DNA from: a virus
Direction: 5' to 3' (one strand)
DNA length: 58,200 bases
IMG/VR virus record: IMGVR_UViG_3300025889_000140
Location: 1-58,200 of that record
Positions within the stretch are counted from its first letter, which is position 1. Each line of letters begins with the position of its first letter. The notes beneath the pieces were generated by a model that was not told the DNA's origin, did no database searches, and saw only the letters and a program-made list of their open reading frames with translations. Shown piece by piece: positions 48 through 58,200 of this stretch. Made by a program: the position numbers and the translations under genes.

Positions 48-155
48 ATGAAAGAAGAAATATTATATCAAATCGAAGAATTTGAAGACGGATATCTGTC
101 ACCTTATAGGTTAGTAGAAAAAATAAAGGAAATACTAAACAATACCACAGATTAA
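48..155 (+). CDS. Hypothetical acidic peptide, 35 aa
   Basis: Small ORF beginning MKEEILYQIEEFEDG and ending NNTTD. It is unrecognised, with a high Glu/Asp content and a predicted helical character. The start follows an AT-rich leader (ATTAATTATG) like those of its downstream neighbours. The stop codon TAA (153-155) lies inside the 5' strand of stem I of the hammerhead ribozyme that follows, so gene and ribozyme overlap by seven bases. That arrangement recurs at the other ribozymes, which supports this short ORF being real. Confidence 0.55.
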   Translation: MKEEILYQIEEFEDGYLSPYRLVEKIKEILNNTTD

Positions 156-206
156 CTGACGAGTCCTAAGAGGACGAAACACCTGAGTAATCAGGTGTCT
201 TAATCT
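149..206 (+). ncRNA. Type I hammerhead ribozyme 1
   Basis: All core elements are present in order. Stem I is AGATTAA (149-155) with TTAATCT (200-206). The CTGACGA core box is at 156-162. Stem II is GTCC (163-166) with GGAC (172-175) around a five-base loop. GAAA is at 176-179. Stem III is CACCTGA (180-186) with TCAGGTG (191-197), closed by a GTAA loop. The U-C cleavage dinucleotide is at 198-199, so self-cleavage is predicted between 199 and 200. It would release a downstream mRNA starting with UUAAUCU and ending in the leader of the 221-562 gene. Stems II and III differ in sequence from those of the other copies but keep pairing, which is compensatory support. Confidence 0.93.
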
Positions 207-821: not shown

Positions 822-886
822 GATTAACTGATGAGGGTTTATTATCCGAAACAGCTGTGCAATCTATTTGCATGGCTGTCTTAATC
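822..886 (+). ncRNA. Type I hammerhead ribozyme 2
   Basis: Stem I is GATTAA (822-827) with TTAATC (881-886). The CTGATGA box is at 828-834. Stem II is GGG (835-837) with TCC (845-847, one G-U pair) around a seven-base loop. GAAA is at 848-851. Stem III is an 11-bp hairpin (852-862 with 868-878) that includes two G-U pairs. The U-C cleavage dinucleotide is at 879-880, so cleavage is predicted after 880. This copy has the weakest stem II and longest stem III of the four. The 21-nt leader left after cleavage ends at ATG 902. Confidence 0.9.
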
Positions 887-1659: not shown

Positions 1660-1841
1660 AAGAGCAATATAGAATTTTACGAAGAATGCAAGAAGATGGC
1701 TACAACGTAGTCACTTGCGGTAATTGTGGCGATGTAGTGTTATTGGAAGTAGATGACACTATTGAGGACGTTCAATGTCCACACTGCAAAGAGACTATGG
1801 ACTATAGCGACATGCCAGATTTATACCACCAGATTAACTGA
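1656..1841 (+). CDS. Zinc-ribbon protein, 61 aa
   Basis: Two CxxC knuckles (C21/C24 in CGNC, C41/C44 in CPHC), 16 residues apart, give a classic four-cysteine zinc ribbon. Such small phage proteins often bind nucleic acid or RNA polymerase, but the role here is unknown. The gene is coupled to 1411-1659. Its TGA stop (1839-1841) lies within the CTGATGA core of hammerhead ribozyme 3, so the ribozyme starts inside this reading frame and cleavage leaves the stop intact on the 5' product. Confidence 0.72.
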   Translation: MKEQYRILRRMQEDGYNVVTCGNCGDVVLLEVDDTIEDVQCPHCKETMDYSDMPDLYHQIN

Positions 1842-1889
1842 TGAGACTTGAGTAGTCGAAAGGGTAGGAATTTTCCTACTCTCTTAATC
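1832..1889 (+). ncRNA. Type I hammerhead ribozyme 3
   Basis: Stem I is GATTAA (1832-1837) with TTAATC (1884-1889). The CTGATGA box is at 1838-1844. Stem II is GACT (1845-1848) with AGTC (1854-1857) and loop TGAGT. GAAA is at 1858-1861. Stem III is eight base pairs (1862-1869 with 1874-1881, one G-U). The U-C cleavage dinucleotide is at 1882-1883, so cleavage is predicted between 1883 and 1884. Unlike copies 1, 2 and 4, the 3' product carries a GGC-GAAA-GCC hairpin right behind the cleavage strand. Confidence 0.92.
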
Positions 1890-5803: not shown

Positions 5804-5872
5804 ACATTTATAACATAACCACTGATAATCAGTAAGTTAAGTAACACAAAGTCGACACAAAGTCGACACAAA
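5804..5872 (+). repeat. Origin-like module: 13-mer, palindrome and 11-bp direct repeats
   Basis: ACATTTATAACAT (5804-5816) is followed after six bases by TGATAATCAG (5823-5832), the centre of the 13-nt palindrome ACTGATAATCAGT. Then come 2.6 copies of the 11-mer ACACAAAGTCG (5844-5854, 5855-5865, partial to 5872). The same 13-mer and spacing occur at 56179-56207, again followed by 11-bp repeats. It lies 16 bases before the primase-helicase ATG in a non-coding stretch (5747-5887). It may be an origin or a regulatory operator. Confidence 0.55.
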
Positions 5873-21700: not shown

Positions 21701-22714
21701 TTCCTCAAAATCTAACTTCATCCAGTCATTAGGATTCGTTCCGTAGAACTCAGGATTTTTTGGGAATAAAGTTGGAATAGCATAATGCTTTCCATCTTCC
21801 TCATAAGATGTCATCAAGACAGTAGAGGCAGTCCCATCAGCATTTATCAGCCCTACTCTTCGTAGCTGTTGAGCTTTTAAAGATTTACCCTCGAAGTCTA
21901 AGGCTTCATTTGTTTCAAACTCTTCAAGAGCATGTTGCGATAAAAAGTTTTTTAGCTTTTGAGATTCTAATATCTCTGTGTCTGTGGTAAAAGGGTCGAG
22001 GTCAATTGTTTCTGTAGCTGAACCATCAAAATTAGTAACAATCATTTTGTCACCAATACCAGTTTCTTCAAAACTAAACCCATACTTCTGAAACTTTTTA
22101 TTTAAAGCAGGGACAACAGACTCTTCTTCTTGAGCAATAAGGTCAGCAGTAACAATTGATAAATCATTTTGAAACTGTTCACTTTGTTGTAGTAATGTTT
22201 GGTTTATTTTTTGCTGCTCTAACTGAGCTTCTTGGTCTAGCTTTTCTTGAGTTTTAAAAGCTTCCATGTCCAGTTTACGCTGAGCATCAAAAGCCTCTTT
22301 AGCTTCTCTTTCTTGAGCTACTTGAACAGGGTCTCTAAACTTTGGCTGTGCAACTCTTGTTTGGTCTATCGCTTGTACTGGAGGTTGCTCTCGTAAATCA
22401 ACACCATCTTCTTGAATATTGTACTTAGTCTTGAATCGCTCCAATAAACCAACTTCCGAATCTGAGACCGAAGCGTCTTTTTTTTTTACTTCAACCTCAT
22501 CTTCAACAAACGATTCTGTTTTAAGCTTAGGGGACTTGTACTTCAACAAAAACTCTTCTTTTGTTTTGGTATATAAACCATCTCTAGATACCACTCCAAA
22601 CACTTGGTCTTTGTACGCATCGCTTCCGTTATACTTCTGTATAAATTCTTCGTAAGAATTAGTGTAATATCCCTCTCTTACTAGAGTATCATAAAGTTTT
22701 TTTAATTCGTCCAT
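12773..22714 (-). CDS. Giant internal virion/ejection protein with zinc-metallopeptidase motif, 3313 aa
   Basis: By position and size this is the largest member of a three-protein internal-virion set (with 22724-24610 and 24628-25536). The N-terminus has two copies of a short repeat (LYDTLVREGYYTNSYEEF, then VVSRDGLYTKTKEEFLLK). A Gly/Ala-rich hydrophobic stretch (about residues 675-720, GAGVGAGVGATAGGVG) may insert in membranes. IHEMGHVW near residue 2018 is an HExxH zinc-peptidase motif. The rest is mostly charged helical sequence. It probably enters the cell with the DNA and processes or spans the envelope. It is unusually long for such proteins. The reading frame is uninterrupted. Confidence 0.8.
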   Translation of the reverse strand: MDELKKLYDTLVREGYYTNSYEEFIQKYNGSDAYKDQVFGVVSRDGLYTKTKEEFLLKYKSPKLKTESFVEDEVEVKKKDASVSDSEVGLLERFKTKYNIQEDGVDLREQPPVQAIDQTRVAQPKFRDPVQVAQEREAKEAFDAQRKLDMEAFKTQEKLDQEAQLEQQKINQTLLQQSEQFQNDLSIVTADLIAQEEESVVPALNKKFQKYGFSFEETGIGDKMIVTNFDGSATETIDLDPFTTDTEILESQKLKNFLSQHALEEFETNEALDFEGKSLKAQQLRRVGLINADGTASTVLMTSYEEDGKHYAIPTLFPKNPEFYGTNPNDWMKLDFEEAKKVAEERGEVFQFDTEEEAQRFAEGEWKDTHSTDAVGKKLYSDTGLNFKTEQAKYDKYLEVRDKIDFIESQVADFGADYIEELTPEQKKLYGGLYVDGILRDDTDEVLAELKKIEDDLYSEVNTSEKIELREKYDLLLQKKYSALAKDASIANYQAKAFEEALEIEALETFGVELKNLTDVKPETEREAALLDSFKVQVASLNAEKQHAANIYESAKTFYSAKYDKSIMGEFETGFSAALNEIRKGLNDGNAAEVILQLSTGMPFDFQSLDLDNPEDVKKAAEMIVAFKTKNRGKKDSRALSRYYRAKGFRESLDAFLRNPGELALSLAANSIAMMLPYGFEIVTASTVTGAGVGAGVGATAGGVGAIPGAVLGAQKGARAGMAMTNLAMEYTNEFFAAMESEGYDVLDAKDVELAIQDEDVWALAKERGFKRGIPIAMVDYFTSGLAGRVFKVGKTATRTKKIASQLAERAIFDPIGEMAGEATAQVVVGDQLDWKDIAAEGIGGFGSNASMMAVNKLIDARNMSNIELASKLTDINFIVNEKESDTRISAWTNNMLALGKINEDQGQRIQKNLGLSKDADNMLDFGRSKNRPKNKRVKARLMELLAAKEEYTADTNRKEVFSQKIKDINAEIAYLIENKSLAPDNKRAKIESIFSPGVEVGDVRAGLSQYVIDGKSYTKQEFLKKLGKMSVRELTKFNGKVVNDEEVANQLNDKINAVQKPETESVDARQQAAIGTGVGTEVSLEETPGVETTETQEVVETKKFQDNNVVLKEETFTVTNEDGSRQEVTVKTYLDGSFGTGARVKRFDSDGTLIDDSGAFDVNLADNDIVIRDGITAEQQVKDVFAPGEEVFEKTSERSGTEVNNPKKIAQLTTDQKQKLGITVTPTTKPETVVAVAPFFDTTIESAEQAQTLRESEGYQQYKNNLTGIGQQLGLEVEVEEGIGGYKNDAGTEIVEISNRVVLKNATIEQAEEYAALAAALAPETQESSIAATYVEEGAENHNGNEYTLNVTDTQGTIDALKKAGITDFTINEDTGEVSFINIFDFDDPTLQDKIGIFVQELEANNITYEKQNYRPVNSVYVDQGKRKEILGRAASKRSADRQTGSSLYNSLLQAVENDAKFQGITTEEYLPGIKELQASATAAAQEVADLETSLDDTKVDFRKKEDDSFTPIKGEVDAVTKAINETQSGNVSTNLVVKPEGTIDVNELNSRTDRKLPSIKTLEVINGIPAIFNISDQLTTGNIVNIFTGNTIDNLRGGLGFTGTIGNENAAWASTTKEEAQRLLDKAKKVYNDNKELFDKFWKDNPEFNGHVPMNIVKMGEGSIASNEAVFRVLKDNLSKVPAENKVKALEVLRQDLQDIANRRAESIKKGQGTDTTLKKYQEEITNIENVIEAMKDMSSIEQILNAEFLSQLNIPTRELLGKRITTGSVRRAGAPKKKVTMPTKSGKPVALALLEGMEASTETASLTHIQEITDLITEPQLANVPQRSIIALQAVDVTVDDVIETNHPNYPFGPKGKTIGILEQPVSLIETYPEAYRLAMAGLTSAETKQDRVTKTKAEKSKGQLVEGELAPASVGTILTQKLGVQYGLPGLEFEGALAQTNMDNVAKLNAFMNISFPSVTISTDTSTFNNVMESEGVKKYLKGDEVIYGVTVDGDIYVNPDVHNSQSALFNTSIHEMGHVWTDYLQTTKKGKAIYAQGVKLVEQTEEYKKQLKNFNGDKAKAANETMAILIGNKGQTIADGAVKSKFTQWLLGMWNYIKSQFKMSKDLTAEEIQDMNLDTFLGTALADIFAGKEINLTKAQEKKLKNPDAAFSKTDSMGAIINKGRQNGFSDASIKEVLKDRGFKVADINAAMEVKVDAFTPLPEAFGRVEGGVSQGMQLFNEVRQKLSKFTTPEKTLSEVRQKAMDLIKENPIYKAQPEQTQMEILVDFDKTLNTRSNVAVQKEIAAIKNNLRQRKINSQNLKAAQIQLRNYIRKALPKSKMYTQAQINRLISRVTKSTVDTFQADTEYVMKIVDQQKTKMKNALVKDMLKLVKAKAMTAFTKSGKRRAKGLSREGTAYFKAVKQILTADIDDLNKIQQDLQNESTEINNLIEKQNDGQKLTQKEQAKVNLALAMDTFGDVSNMSLEEVQDLMQQLKDVRAESIATFKSRRQARVEANKKMKEEADAQIKDTNPMLFDADGNVLNKNERNARKNEILSHFRSFEIGKAFSALGERMAFSTAKEFIQNMKQMFQHLGTLSNVLDRVTQGKNFFTKNVYDALNRMDDLNNAGVFQTQAKLDAIANTIPGITKGAKQIYSKLNSGVHVLKLKRSDTGREYTDRFNADELMRIYALSLNDVQRQKLEAQGITPEVIENIKSIIGPEAVEFTDKTVNFLSNEYYESVNDVYSYVNDVNLGYVNNYFPTSTIQKETTKKMITDGDFNGVFNAESAPAFKERVDMRSDVDLHAGTFTTVLKNHVDTMEKYKAYAVGTQRLNALFKIDSVNVLLEEMGVTGPIKKAVNFAINPDSGKDASLSIKLIARLQTQFTGFALAFKAIQILKQATSFVNAYSDYSYFPANSRVPRIIQAAVDLPMFMIDGAKVALSLGKDLVGKKGAIREAMEISPTFRKRVEQGLEGDVYGLESGSQTFKKTALTGGKLKRAQAAFKTAAASPTIIGDVLGVMGYMINYKRNIANGMSKADAVKAFNDYNATQQSRRGTDKIPLQMNSNIFNRAFTMFGSTLFLQMNKVMQSTTNITRDMANKKRPRSKDTRDLALNLAVANVLFVGVSNIAKFIKGDDEDKEAALKKMAEAMMGLNLIYQIPFLGSTVEGLDVAGRVISAIKGEEYKQKGRIFNDDIVNPVASVLQKYRKLTKNGESEIGAVTRALAEITIGAQLDPFIGLYNYFGGEEEDLDPAVYDMLGISPSYRPENKGSVSKGMSKKDMKKFAPGLYEELYGPGGSLAPVEQLKKDERKRKRDLQKEIDAAMGLD

Positions 22715-56528: not shown

Positions 56529-57028
56529 ATCTCAAAGTTTTTGTAAAGATACAAAATTTATTAGATACATAGGGGTTGGAGGTTCCACTGCGCCACACGC
56601 AAACCGACCCACAACGGAAAGCGATATTTTTTTTGCCACCCCCCATAGCGATTTGTTCCCTGCACTCTGGATTTTTTTGCCTTTTTTTTTGACCTGTCCT
56701 ACCCTGGTAGTCCTATCCCCTTACCCCTGTCCTGTCCAGGTTACACAAACCCCTTACCCCTGTAGGATTTCCCCCTATATCCCCCCATATCCCCTAACGT
56801 TTACCAGATAAACTTCTTAAGAAGCACAGAGAAGTGCGTTAATCTCTCGCCCAGTTTCCAGTTGTCTAAACATTTAACAGGGAACAAAGACAGATAATGC
56901 GTTGATATTCAATAAGTTAAGTGCGAAAGAACACAATTTTTATTAGAATGATTATAAATTAAAAAAATTTTCCAGGTTAAAATGCATTTTTTTTAAAAAA
57001 CCATTAGGAATTTACAAAAGTATTAAAC
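56529..57028. other. Non-coding region with cytosine-run block and palindromes
   Basis: No ORF or RNA gene is identified in this stretch. It holds: a pyrimidine-rich block at 56700-56800 with seven runs of four to six C (minus-strand G runs); a 14-bp direct repeat CCCCTTACCCCTGT at 56717-56730 and 56750-56763; a palindrome CTTCTTAAGAAG at 56813-56824; and a GCAC/GTGC hairpin (56824-56837). The remainder to 57028 is AT-rich. The block may be part of an origin or packaging site (inference). Confidence 0.5.
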
Positions 57029-57036
57029 TATATTTG
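57029..57036 (+). promoter_or_regulatory. Promoter -7 box TATATTTG before the structured RNA
   Basis: TATATTTG fits TAnnTTTG and stands a few bases before the first paired element of the structured RNA, so transcription would start near 57042. A -33 TTTG is not clear. Confidence 0.55.
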
Positions 57037-57041
57037 TACCA

Positions 57042-57518
57042 GAATTGAACGCTCATTGACATATTGACTTCCCATCGAGAGTACGAGAGTACGCTTCGAG
57101 TAATGCTACGAGTAGCCCAGATAACACCTGGTTACTGCTCTGGGTTATCGCTGAAGACAGGGCCTGCCAGAACATCGGTATAGCTGTCCAGATATCCGCA
57201 ATCATATCCGTTCGATATGGTGCTACCAGAGTTTCTTACAGAGGCGAGTACCAGATACACTCGAGAGTCCAGGTAATTCAGGGACTCAAGGGAAGACAAC
57301 TGCGAGTACAAGTGAAACCAGGGAAGAGTCGAAAGACTCCGAAAGATTGCCTACCAGTAGGGTGCTATCACGATAACCAAGTGTTTAACCATCTGTAGAT
57401 GGAGCGAAAAGGATTGTAGTCCTGGACTGATTGTACGACTCTGAAGCATCGGTATCTGAACGACAGACTAGTGGGAGCAATACCCATGCCGATGACTAAT
57501 TTTAACCAGGCGAAAGCC
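57042..57518 (+). ncRNA. Large structured non-coding RNA / long 5' leader, about 470 nt
   Basis: No ORF is seen, but the stretch is visibly richer in G+C than its flanks and packed with exact inverted repeats. These include GATAAC/GTTATC (57120-57125 with 57144-57149) nested in GCCC/GGGC, CATATC/GATATG (57203-57219), CGAGT/ACTCG (57245-57263), GAGTCC/GGACTC (57265-57287), GAGTC-GAAA-GACTC (57326-57339), CCTA/TAGG (57350-57361) and CCATC-TGTA-GATGG (57389-57402). A three-way junction is closed by CATCGG/CCGATG (57447-57452 with 57489-57494), and GGC-GAAA-GCC (57509-57518) is the last hairpin. It ends 14 bases before the next ATG. Class unknown: a new ornate RNA, a ROOL/GOLLD-type RNA or a group I-like element are alternatives. 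Confidence 0.7.
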
Positions 57519-57532
57519 ATAAATTTTATATC

Positions 57533-57910
57533 ATGCAAAAATTAACGCAAGAACAACTAGACAACAGGGATGAAATCAAAATCGTAAAGAAGCTACTCTC
57601 GATGACAGCACATGTAATCTCGAAAGAAAACGAGGACAAATCCTGGAAACTACAGATAAGCACACCAGATTTCAAGGTGGTGATGAGATTCCACATGCAA
57701 GATTGCCCAGTGAAAGTCCTGAGATACGGAATACAAACCTGGTCGCTAAGTGTTCTCAACTCGAAAGGGAACAGGGTAATGTATAACTCCAGTGTAAATC
57801 CTCAGGTAGCTCAACTGATTGGTGAACTGGTGGGAGGGCACGAAGAGAAAACCCAGAAGCAAGACCAGAAGCAAGACTGGAAAGACCTAGAAACGTTTTT
57901 CAACCTGTAG
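57533..57910 (+). CDS. Hypothetical protein, 125 aa
   Basis: MQKLTQEQLDNRDEIKIVKK, a mixed alpha/beta protein with SKENEDKSWKLQISTPDFKV and VLRYGIQTWSLSVLNSKGNR. The C-terminus is Lys/Gln-rich (KTQKQDQKQDWKDLETF). No family is recognised. The leader is the large structured RNA, and the stop TAG (57908-57910) overlaps stem I of hammerhead ribozyme 4. Confidence 0.68.
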   Translation: MQKLTQEQLDNRDEIKIVKKLLSMTAHVISKENEDKSWKLQISTPDFKVVMRFHMQDCPVKVLRYGIQTWSLSVLNSKGNRVMYNSSVNPQVAQLIGELVGGHEEKTQKQDQKQDWKDLETFFNL

Positions 57911-57964
57911 ATTAACTGATGAGACCTGATAGGTCGAAACCACCTCACCAGGTGGTCTTAATCT
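57909..57964 (+). ncRNA. Type I hammerhead ribozyme 4
   Basis: Stem I is AGATTAA (57909-57915) with TTAATCT (57958-57964). CTGATGA is at 57916-57922. Stem II is GACC (57923-57926) with GGTC (57932-57935) and loop TGATA. GAAA is at 57936-57939. Stem III is CCACCT (57940-57945) with AGGTGG (57950-57955). The U-C cleavage dinucleotide is at 57956-57957, so cleavage is predicted between 57957 and 57958. The leader behind it, up to and including ATG 57979-57981, is identical over 24 bases to that behind ribozyme 1. Confidence 0.93.
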
Positions 57965-57978
57965 TAAAATTTATTATT

Positions 57979-58167
57979 ATGCAATTCAACAAATTATCGT
58001 TGTATCACTACAACCAAGACCAAGTAACAGAAATCAAGTTTGACGAGTACGGAAGACCATATATCCAGGAGTACACAGAATATGACTCCCAGGGTAACAT
58101 CTTGAAAGTCGGTGGCAAGTTTATGCTATCTATGAGAACAGGTTACGAATTCACCATTGAAAACTAA
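57979..58167 (+). CDS. Hypothetical protein, 62 aa
   Basis: MQFNKLSLYHYNQDQVTEIK, acidic and Tyr-rich with no recognised domain. The ATG at 57979 is chosen, although an in-frame ATG lies at 57919, because that one is inside ribozyme 4 and the leader after cleavage ends at 57979. Two further in-frame Met codons are internal. Confidence 0.65.
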   Translation: MQFNKLSLYHYNQDQVTEIKFDEYGRPYIQEYTEYDSQGNILKVGGKFMLSMRTGYEFTIEN

Positions 58168-58172
58168 GAGCT

Positions 58173-58200
58173 ATGAAGTTTACGAAAGAACAACTGGAAA
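58173..58200 (+). CDS. Partial small ORF cut by the window end
   Basis: ATG at 58173 opens MKFTKEQLE and runs off the window. It follows the 62-aa gene after five bases. Nothing can be said about its product. Confidence 0.3.

Follow-up and report, generated by a model that had tools for sequence, protein, structure and literature searches.

Near the right end of a 58.2-kb virus record (the window, that is, the whole stretch of DNA analyzed), positions 57042–57518 raise the question of what a phage could encode in a region without an evident gene. The original prediction was a large structured RNA of unknown class upstream of a ribozyme-flanked gene. As it had described, the stretch contained no plus-strand open reading frame of at least 40 codons (the sole calls were 50–59 codons on the minus strand), and its G+C content of 0.476 was above that of its flanks (0.281 for 56800–57041 and 0.399 for 57519–58200). 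The promoter box before it and the small gene after it were also found, with ~490 nt from the −7 box to the first AUG and about 460 untranslated nt after a boxA-like motif. This layout of promoter, boxA-like motif, leader, and first gene of a rightward operon marks the RNA as an operon leader, and we assigned 57042–57495 to this phage operon as its untranslated leader. The RNA proper is best read as stopping near 57495, and 57496–57532 as the 5′ UTR of the mRNA. The features of the region were as follows.

57029–57036, plus strand: promoter −7 box of the Bacteroidota type (TATATTTG), assigned by sequence and recurring before the boxA-like motif in seven other loci.
57051–57067, plus strand: boxA-like motif (GCTCATTGACATATTGA), matching the GYTCNTTGA motif of Bacteroidota rRNA leaders.
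57068–57303, plus strand: 5′ domain of the leader, varying by subgroup in alignments and not conserved in the window, with folding energy like that of shuffles.
57306–57311, plus strand: 5′ strand (GUACAA) of a long-range closing stem, pairing with 57431–57436.
57369–57383, plus strand: hairpin H0 (CAC/GUG), with an equivalent hairpin showing compensatory changes between the L199 and L242 groups.
57389–57402, plus strand: hairpin H1 (CCAUC-UGUA-GAUGG), with both-sided changes in two of five pairs.
57431–57436, plus strand: 3′ strand (UUGUAC) of the closing stem, pairing with 57306–57311.
57447–57494, plus strand: terminal three-way junction, with five pairs showing both-sided changes and all cells paired.
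57496–57532, plus strand: 5′ UTR of the first gene, with a GGC-GAAA-GCC hairpin at 57509–57518 and the layout of the UTRs that follow hammerheads.
57533–57910, plus strand: first gene of the operon (125 codons), with no match in a PHROG search.

The window terminase was 78% identical to that of MW202828 (Podoviridae sp., Manatee Spring) and 32–46% identical to those of Flavobacterium, Cellulophaga, and Tenacibaculum isolate phages, suggesting that the hosts are probably Flavobacteriia. Isolate records with a terminase match were filed under Elemovirus, Pachyviridae, and Pervagoviridae. Structural genes and GroEL lay on the minus strand and replication genes on the plus strand, and the leader occupied the divergent spacer beside GroEL, at the head of the plus-strand gene block. 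This block probably continues into the plus-strand genes of the left contig end, because L091 and L252 run a similar series of genes and hammerheads unbroken. Position and gene content lead us to regard the operon as early. Its first gene had a homologue in L209 (by reading), and L199 and L247 carried another first gene. Since the first gene differed even between close members of the leader family, the RNA appears to serve the operon and not a single gene.

The many perfect hairpins that had been offered as evidence of structure did not hold up as such, since the whole region folded no better than its dinucleotide shuffles (z −1.07; 12 of 100 shuffles were equally good), and most sub-windows had unremarkable folding energies. 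Structure therefore had to be assessed by comparison, and the evidence for it is comparative, not energetic. The predicted nested GCCC/GGGC-GATAAC/GTTATC stem exists locally (within 57112–57152, z −2.4) but falls in the 5′ half, outside the conserved part. In the window copy, the 5′ ~240 nt showed no conservation and folded roughly as well as shuffles; L199 and the L242 group share a well-conserved 5′ half, from which the window copy differs. Total leader length varied among members from about 300 to 450 nt.

Using the covariance model, we identified the leader RNA in 11 contigs, taken to be from marine Bacteroidota phages of about four lineages, always at the same position, a sample of few lineages in which several members are near-identical. 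Terminase relatives yielded one leader homologue (G004/L091, 69% identity over the 3′ part), while GroEL relatives combined with degenerate patterns yielded L113, L199, L209, L241, L242, L244, L247, L249, and L251. The terminase of the L247 phage was 75% identical to that of the window. The model (R1) covers the 3′ 122 positions of the leader and scored 117–145 bits in 10 of the 11 contigs and 74 bits in the truncated L113; as eight of the 11 sequences were used in building it, these match by construction, and the model mainly shows absence elsewhere, none of the other relatives examined scoring 20 bits. Searching with the first-gene protein recovered no leader homologues, exact DNA patterns gave mostly chance matches in coding sequence, and BLAST of phage records with the leader of the window, L242, or L127 gave no match. 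Weak model matches in L159, G022, and G027 (E 0.4–0.7) were not accepted as members. A scan of GTDB species genomes matched only L208, a chance match, and L209, a true member. L209 (JAAGZR010000219.1), binned as Aliivibrio, is a relative of the window phage with the leader RNA, the gene order, and eight hammerheads, and its Aliivibrio assignment is probably a binning error. Judged from these members, the leader family is narrow, and its conserved portion is about 190 nt at the 3′ end.

This conserved portion consists of a long-range stem around hairpins, followed by the three-way junction. In the alignment of eight members (seven distinct), all 147 of the 147 cells for the 21 modelled pairs held standard pairs, and RNAalifold yielded exactly the same 21-pair structure. 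Both-sided changes occurred in at least one member at seven of the 21 pairs, compared with 4.5 in shuffles and 0–1 in slid controls. The closing stem, which encloses the hairpins, also formed with different pairs in L199, L242, and L091, so that the four diverged members read GUACAA/UUGUAC, GUACA/UGUAC, GUAAA/UUUAC, and GUUGU/GCAAC. The CATCGG/CCGATG junction named in the original prediction was present and conserved with covariation; it comprises a 7-bp outer stem, a 4-bp arm, a CUA linker, and a 5-bp arm that adjoins the outer stem without a gap and carries an invariant AGCAAUA loop. This geometry, as predicted from the alignment, is that of a tRNA acceptor/T arm minus the anticodon arm. Loop and linker nucleotides were invariant at AGCAAUA, CNAG, and GANNGA.

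A cmscan against Rfam 15 returned no match that reached the gathering score, with nothing noteworthy among matches at E ≤ 10, and none of the ROOL, GOLLD, group I intron, or other family models matched. A P7-like pairing of group I introns (CAGGGACU/AGUCC), sought by eye, was not conserved among members. The absence of an Rfam match, together with the homologues and covariation for which the original prediction had called, supports a structured RNA of an undescribed family. From these alignments the locus almost certainly encodes a real, conserved, and previously undescribed structured leader RNA. The suggestion of a large ornate RNA of the ROOL, GOLLD, or intron type was not sustained, given only ~190 conserved nt, a variable length, a narrow family, and an operon-leader layout.

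Transcription is expected to start at about 57042–57044. Throughout the clade, GYTCNTTGACATNNTGA, which resembles the Bacteroidota motif upstream of 16S, sits 14–19 nt past the −7 box (14 nt in the window). Each leader-bearing genome tested had one copy and none had the reversed pattern, and the motif was absent from L124, L128, L131, L135, L181, and L187, relatives that have the divergent spacer and a short UTR without the leader. GYTCNTTGA was found in 17 of 28 Bacteroidota rRNA leaders, 82–287 nt before 16S (0.41 in shuffles). The window motif has an A where most rRNA leaders have a T (GCTCATTGA), and GTTCATTGA was found in L214, L226, and L228. It agrees in part only with the E. coli-type sequence GYTCTTTAANA, the gamma-proteobacterial boxA consensus (PMC5725501). 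In E. coli, boxA takes polymerase past Rho across a 567-bp noncoding UTR (PMC4807359). Lying near the transcript start and having the sequence of the host lineage, as a Nus-factor antitermination leader should, the motif probably functions as a boxA by analogy, and host-type antitermination would be its natural reading.

The boxA-like motif also heads unrelated-looking leaders in the more distant phages L127, L134, L140, L171, and L172. In L127 (1298–1669, minus strand) and L134 (6381–6752, minus strand), a different boxA-headed leader stands directly before a small ORF. Its terminal element, seated on a 7-bp stem, has a canonical tRNA T loop (GGTTCGACTCC; UGCGG-UUCGACU-CCGCA in L127), and ARAGORN found no tRNA there. 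These leader ends would fit the idea of tRNA-like cutting. A third boxA-headed leader, in L140 (3380–3641, minus strand) and L172 (4538–4799, minus strand), finishes with a terminator-like hairpin (GCCCATTC...GAATGGGCTTTT) a short way ahead of the first gene. The G025 match to boxA falls inside an apparent portal gene. In the cultured Cellulophaga phage phi13:2 (L275, KC821633), GTTCATTGACATATTG occurs at 22449 on the minus strand, ~100 nt before a leftward gene block, so that this phage might serve to study the boxA question in the laboratory. A host mRNA leader in a Paludibacteraceae genome (L210, about 1480–1520) has GTTCTTTGACATGTTG immediately downstream of a promoter-like box and may be a case of Bacteroidota boxA outside rRNA operons.

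Complete type I hammerheads, with the core strands and stems I–III and with stem I open, lay between consecutive genes in seven loci (34 copies). The window copies, all below the Rfam cut-off, were as follows.

57910–57963, plus strand: type I hammerhead between the first and second genes, stems I/II/III of 6/6/7 bp (Rfam Hammerhead_1, 20.5 bits).
150–205, plus strand: type I hammerhead, stems of 6/5/8 bp.
822–886, plus strand: type I hammerhead, stems of 6/4/12 bp.
1832–1889, plus strand: type I hammerhead, stems of 6/4/10 bp, followed by a GGC-GAAA-GCC hairpin like that after the leader.

The first gene is thus ribozyme-flanked, as had been claimed, on its 3′ side but not on its 5′ side. Such arrays occurred in the window and in L091, L252, and L209, and a single phage segment could carry seven to nine hammerheads. 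Upstream of GroEL on the minus strand of L131 and L135, we observed by eye intergenic hammerhead-like cores with a differently arranged open stem (CCGTC-CGAGAG...CTCTCG-CTGATGAG...CGAAACGG).

The distance from the hammerhead cleavage site to the AUG was 20–24 nt, or 31–34 nt with an extra GAAA-loop hairpin, and that from the last pair of the junction to the first AUG was 22–25 nt, rising to 38 nt in the window, which has the hairpin. The UTR sequence after the junction also resembled that after the hammerheads (ACUAACUUUUAAAUUAAUUAUUAUG vs UUAACUUUAAAAUUCAACUACAAUG). RNase Z acting on tRNA cuts one base past the stem, and a cut so placed leaves a first UTR of 21 nt in L199 and L209, the hammerhead median being 21.5. 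No other evidence hints as strongly at a leader cut at the junction edge as this agreement in spacing; we consider such a cut rather likely, with a proposed site near 57495/57496. The equal UTR length could also be an inherited translation module without cutting. That RNase Z makes the cut, and not self-cleavage or another nuclease, is a tentative suggestion.

From the conservation, the covariation, the promoter and boxA-like layout, the hammerheads, and the equal UTR lengths, all borne out by the comparison, we infer antitermination, a junction cut with its enzyme, and a free RNA. Host RNA polymerase would initiate at the Bacteroidota-type promoter, and within about 15 nt the transcript would expose a boxA of the kind found in host rRNA leaders. 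This boxA would recruit NusB/S10 and make the polymerase Rho-resistant, so that several hundred untranslated nt would be passable. The leader would fold into a closed multi-hairpin domain and the terminal three-way junction, and would be cut at the 3′ edge of the junction, most simply by the host tRNA 3′-processing activity (RNase Z), which would recognize the 7+5 bp acceptor/T-arm-like helix. Hammerheads would cut between the subsequent genes, and the products would be a free structured leader RNA and mostly single-gene mRNAs with nearly identical 5′ UTRs. We think that this account, a boxA-protected leader RNA cut at the junction edge with hammerheads splitting the remainder into single-gene mRNAs, may well be right; against it, the AGCAAUA loop lacks the canonical T-loop UU and no CCA follows. 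A bolder extension, which we regard as unlikely, makes the leader a phage noncoding RNA of a new class: a boxA-driven, rRNA-like transcript would release it in quantity through a cut at its own tRNA-like or ribozyme domain, and it would act in trans on host translation or the Nus machinery early in infection, while ribozymes dice the same transcript into single-gene mRNAs.

The leader could instead stay uncut and act in cis on read-through or translation of the first gene, as an attenuator, riboswitch, or standby element, with the spacing reflecting an inherited initiation module. Its position directly before the first AUG, the same UTR module after hammerheads, and the terminator-like hairpins that finish the L140 and L172 leaders are consistent with such control. 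However, the first gene varies between close members, unlike the case for most riboswitches, no terminator-like hairpin was seen by eye at the 3′ end of window-type leaders, and the junction edge matches the hammerhead cutting distance, so we judge control by an uncut leader to be improbable, if worth keeping in mind. Less likely still is that the 3′ domain is a new class of self-cleaving ribozyme doing for the first gene what the hammerheads do for the others: it has the invariant loop and linker nucleotides, the same distance to the AUG as hammerhead sites, and a phage that relies on ribozymes elsewhere, yet it matches no ribozyme model, and its tRNA-like geometry provides a protein-based alternative.

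A DNA control element, such as an origin or operator, with incidental RNA structure, is very improbable. The site is divergent and intergenic, beside spacer DNA upstream of the promoter (window about 56790–56940) that by eye is conserved with L113, L117, and L199, and CTGATAATCAG-type palindromes are found in a number of leaders and at other sites; however, the nested and three-way stems carry compensatory changes, and the element is always on the transcribed side of the promoter, oriented with the operon. A recurrent CTGATNATCAG-NNNAGTTA element was observed in leaders (L199, L091, L117) and other spacers, including window 5816–5840.

In some Bacteroidota phages the first operon appears to be built on the plan of an rRNA operon: a boxA of host type, a structured RNA that is long and untranslated, and maturation by cutting. 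The ribozyme array would apparently give every mRNA a nearly identical 5′ end. Bacteroidota boxA outside rRNA operons, the need for an untranslated leader, and the effect of a cut at its end become testable, and since only some relatives have the layout, those with and without it can be compared directly. In the open-access literature, the leader RNA family and its combination with hammerheads and boxA appear new; hammerhead clusters and boxA leaders are already known separately.

Compared with ROOL, GOLLD, and other large ornate RNAs, the leader is likewise a long structured RNA in a phage genome, but it has no Rfam match and differs in size, position, and conservation pattern. For hammerhead clusters of (pro)phages, a role in dividing transcripts into mRNAs of one gene each has been proposed (Perreault et al. 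2011, PMC3088659). The type I hammerheads here also lie between consecutive phage genes, but a conserved leader RNA heads the array and the UTR length after cutting is nearly constant. As in lambda nut sites, a boxA-like motif lies in an early phage operon leader, but the hairpin, where present (L242, by eye), precedes boxA instead of following it, and the structured RNA is far longer. In tRNA and tRNA-like substrates of RNase Z and RNase P, a 7-bp stem stacks with a 5-bp arm whose loop has 7 nt, and the D arm has 4 bp. The leader shares the 7-bp outer stem with a gapless, coaxial 5-bp arm and 7-nt loop, and a 4-bp D-like arm, but has no anticodon arm and no CCA; its invariant loop is not a canonical T loop (UUCRANY), ARAGORN found no tRNA in the window, L091, or L199, and the predicted cleavage spacing is consistent with such substrates. 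In layout the leader also resembles bacterial rRNA-operon leaders (boxB-boxA-boxC), which differ in heading rRNA and not a phage operon of protein genes, and for which the Nus link is here a prediction: both place a boxA-like motif no more than about 20 nt from the promoter box and have a long untranslated structured transcript, and in the L242 group a small hairpin directly before the motif (by eye) repeats the boxB-boxA order.
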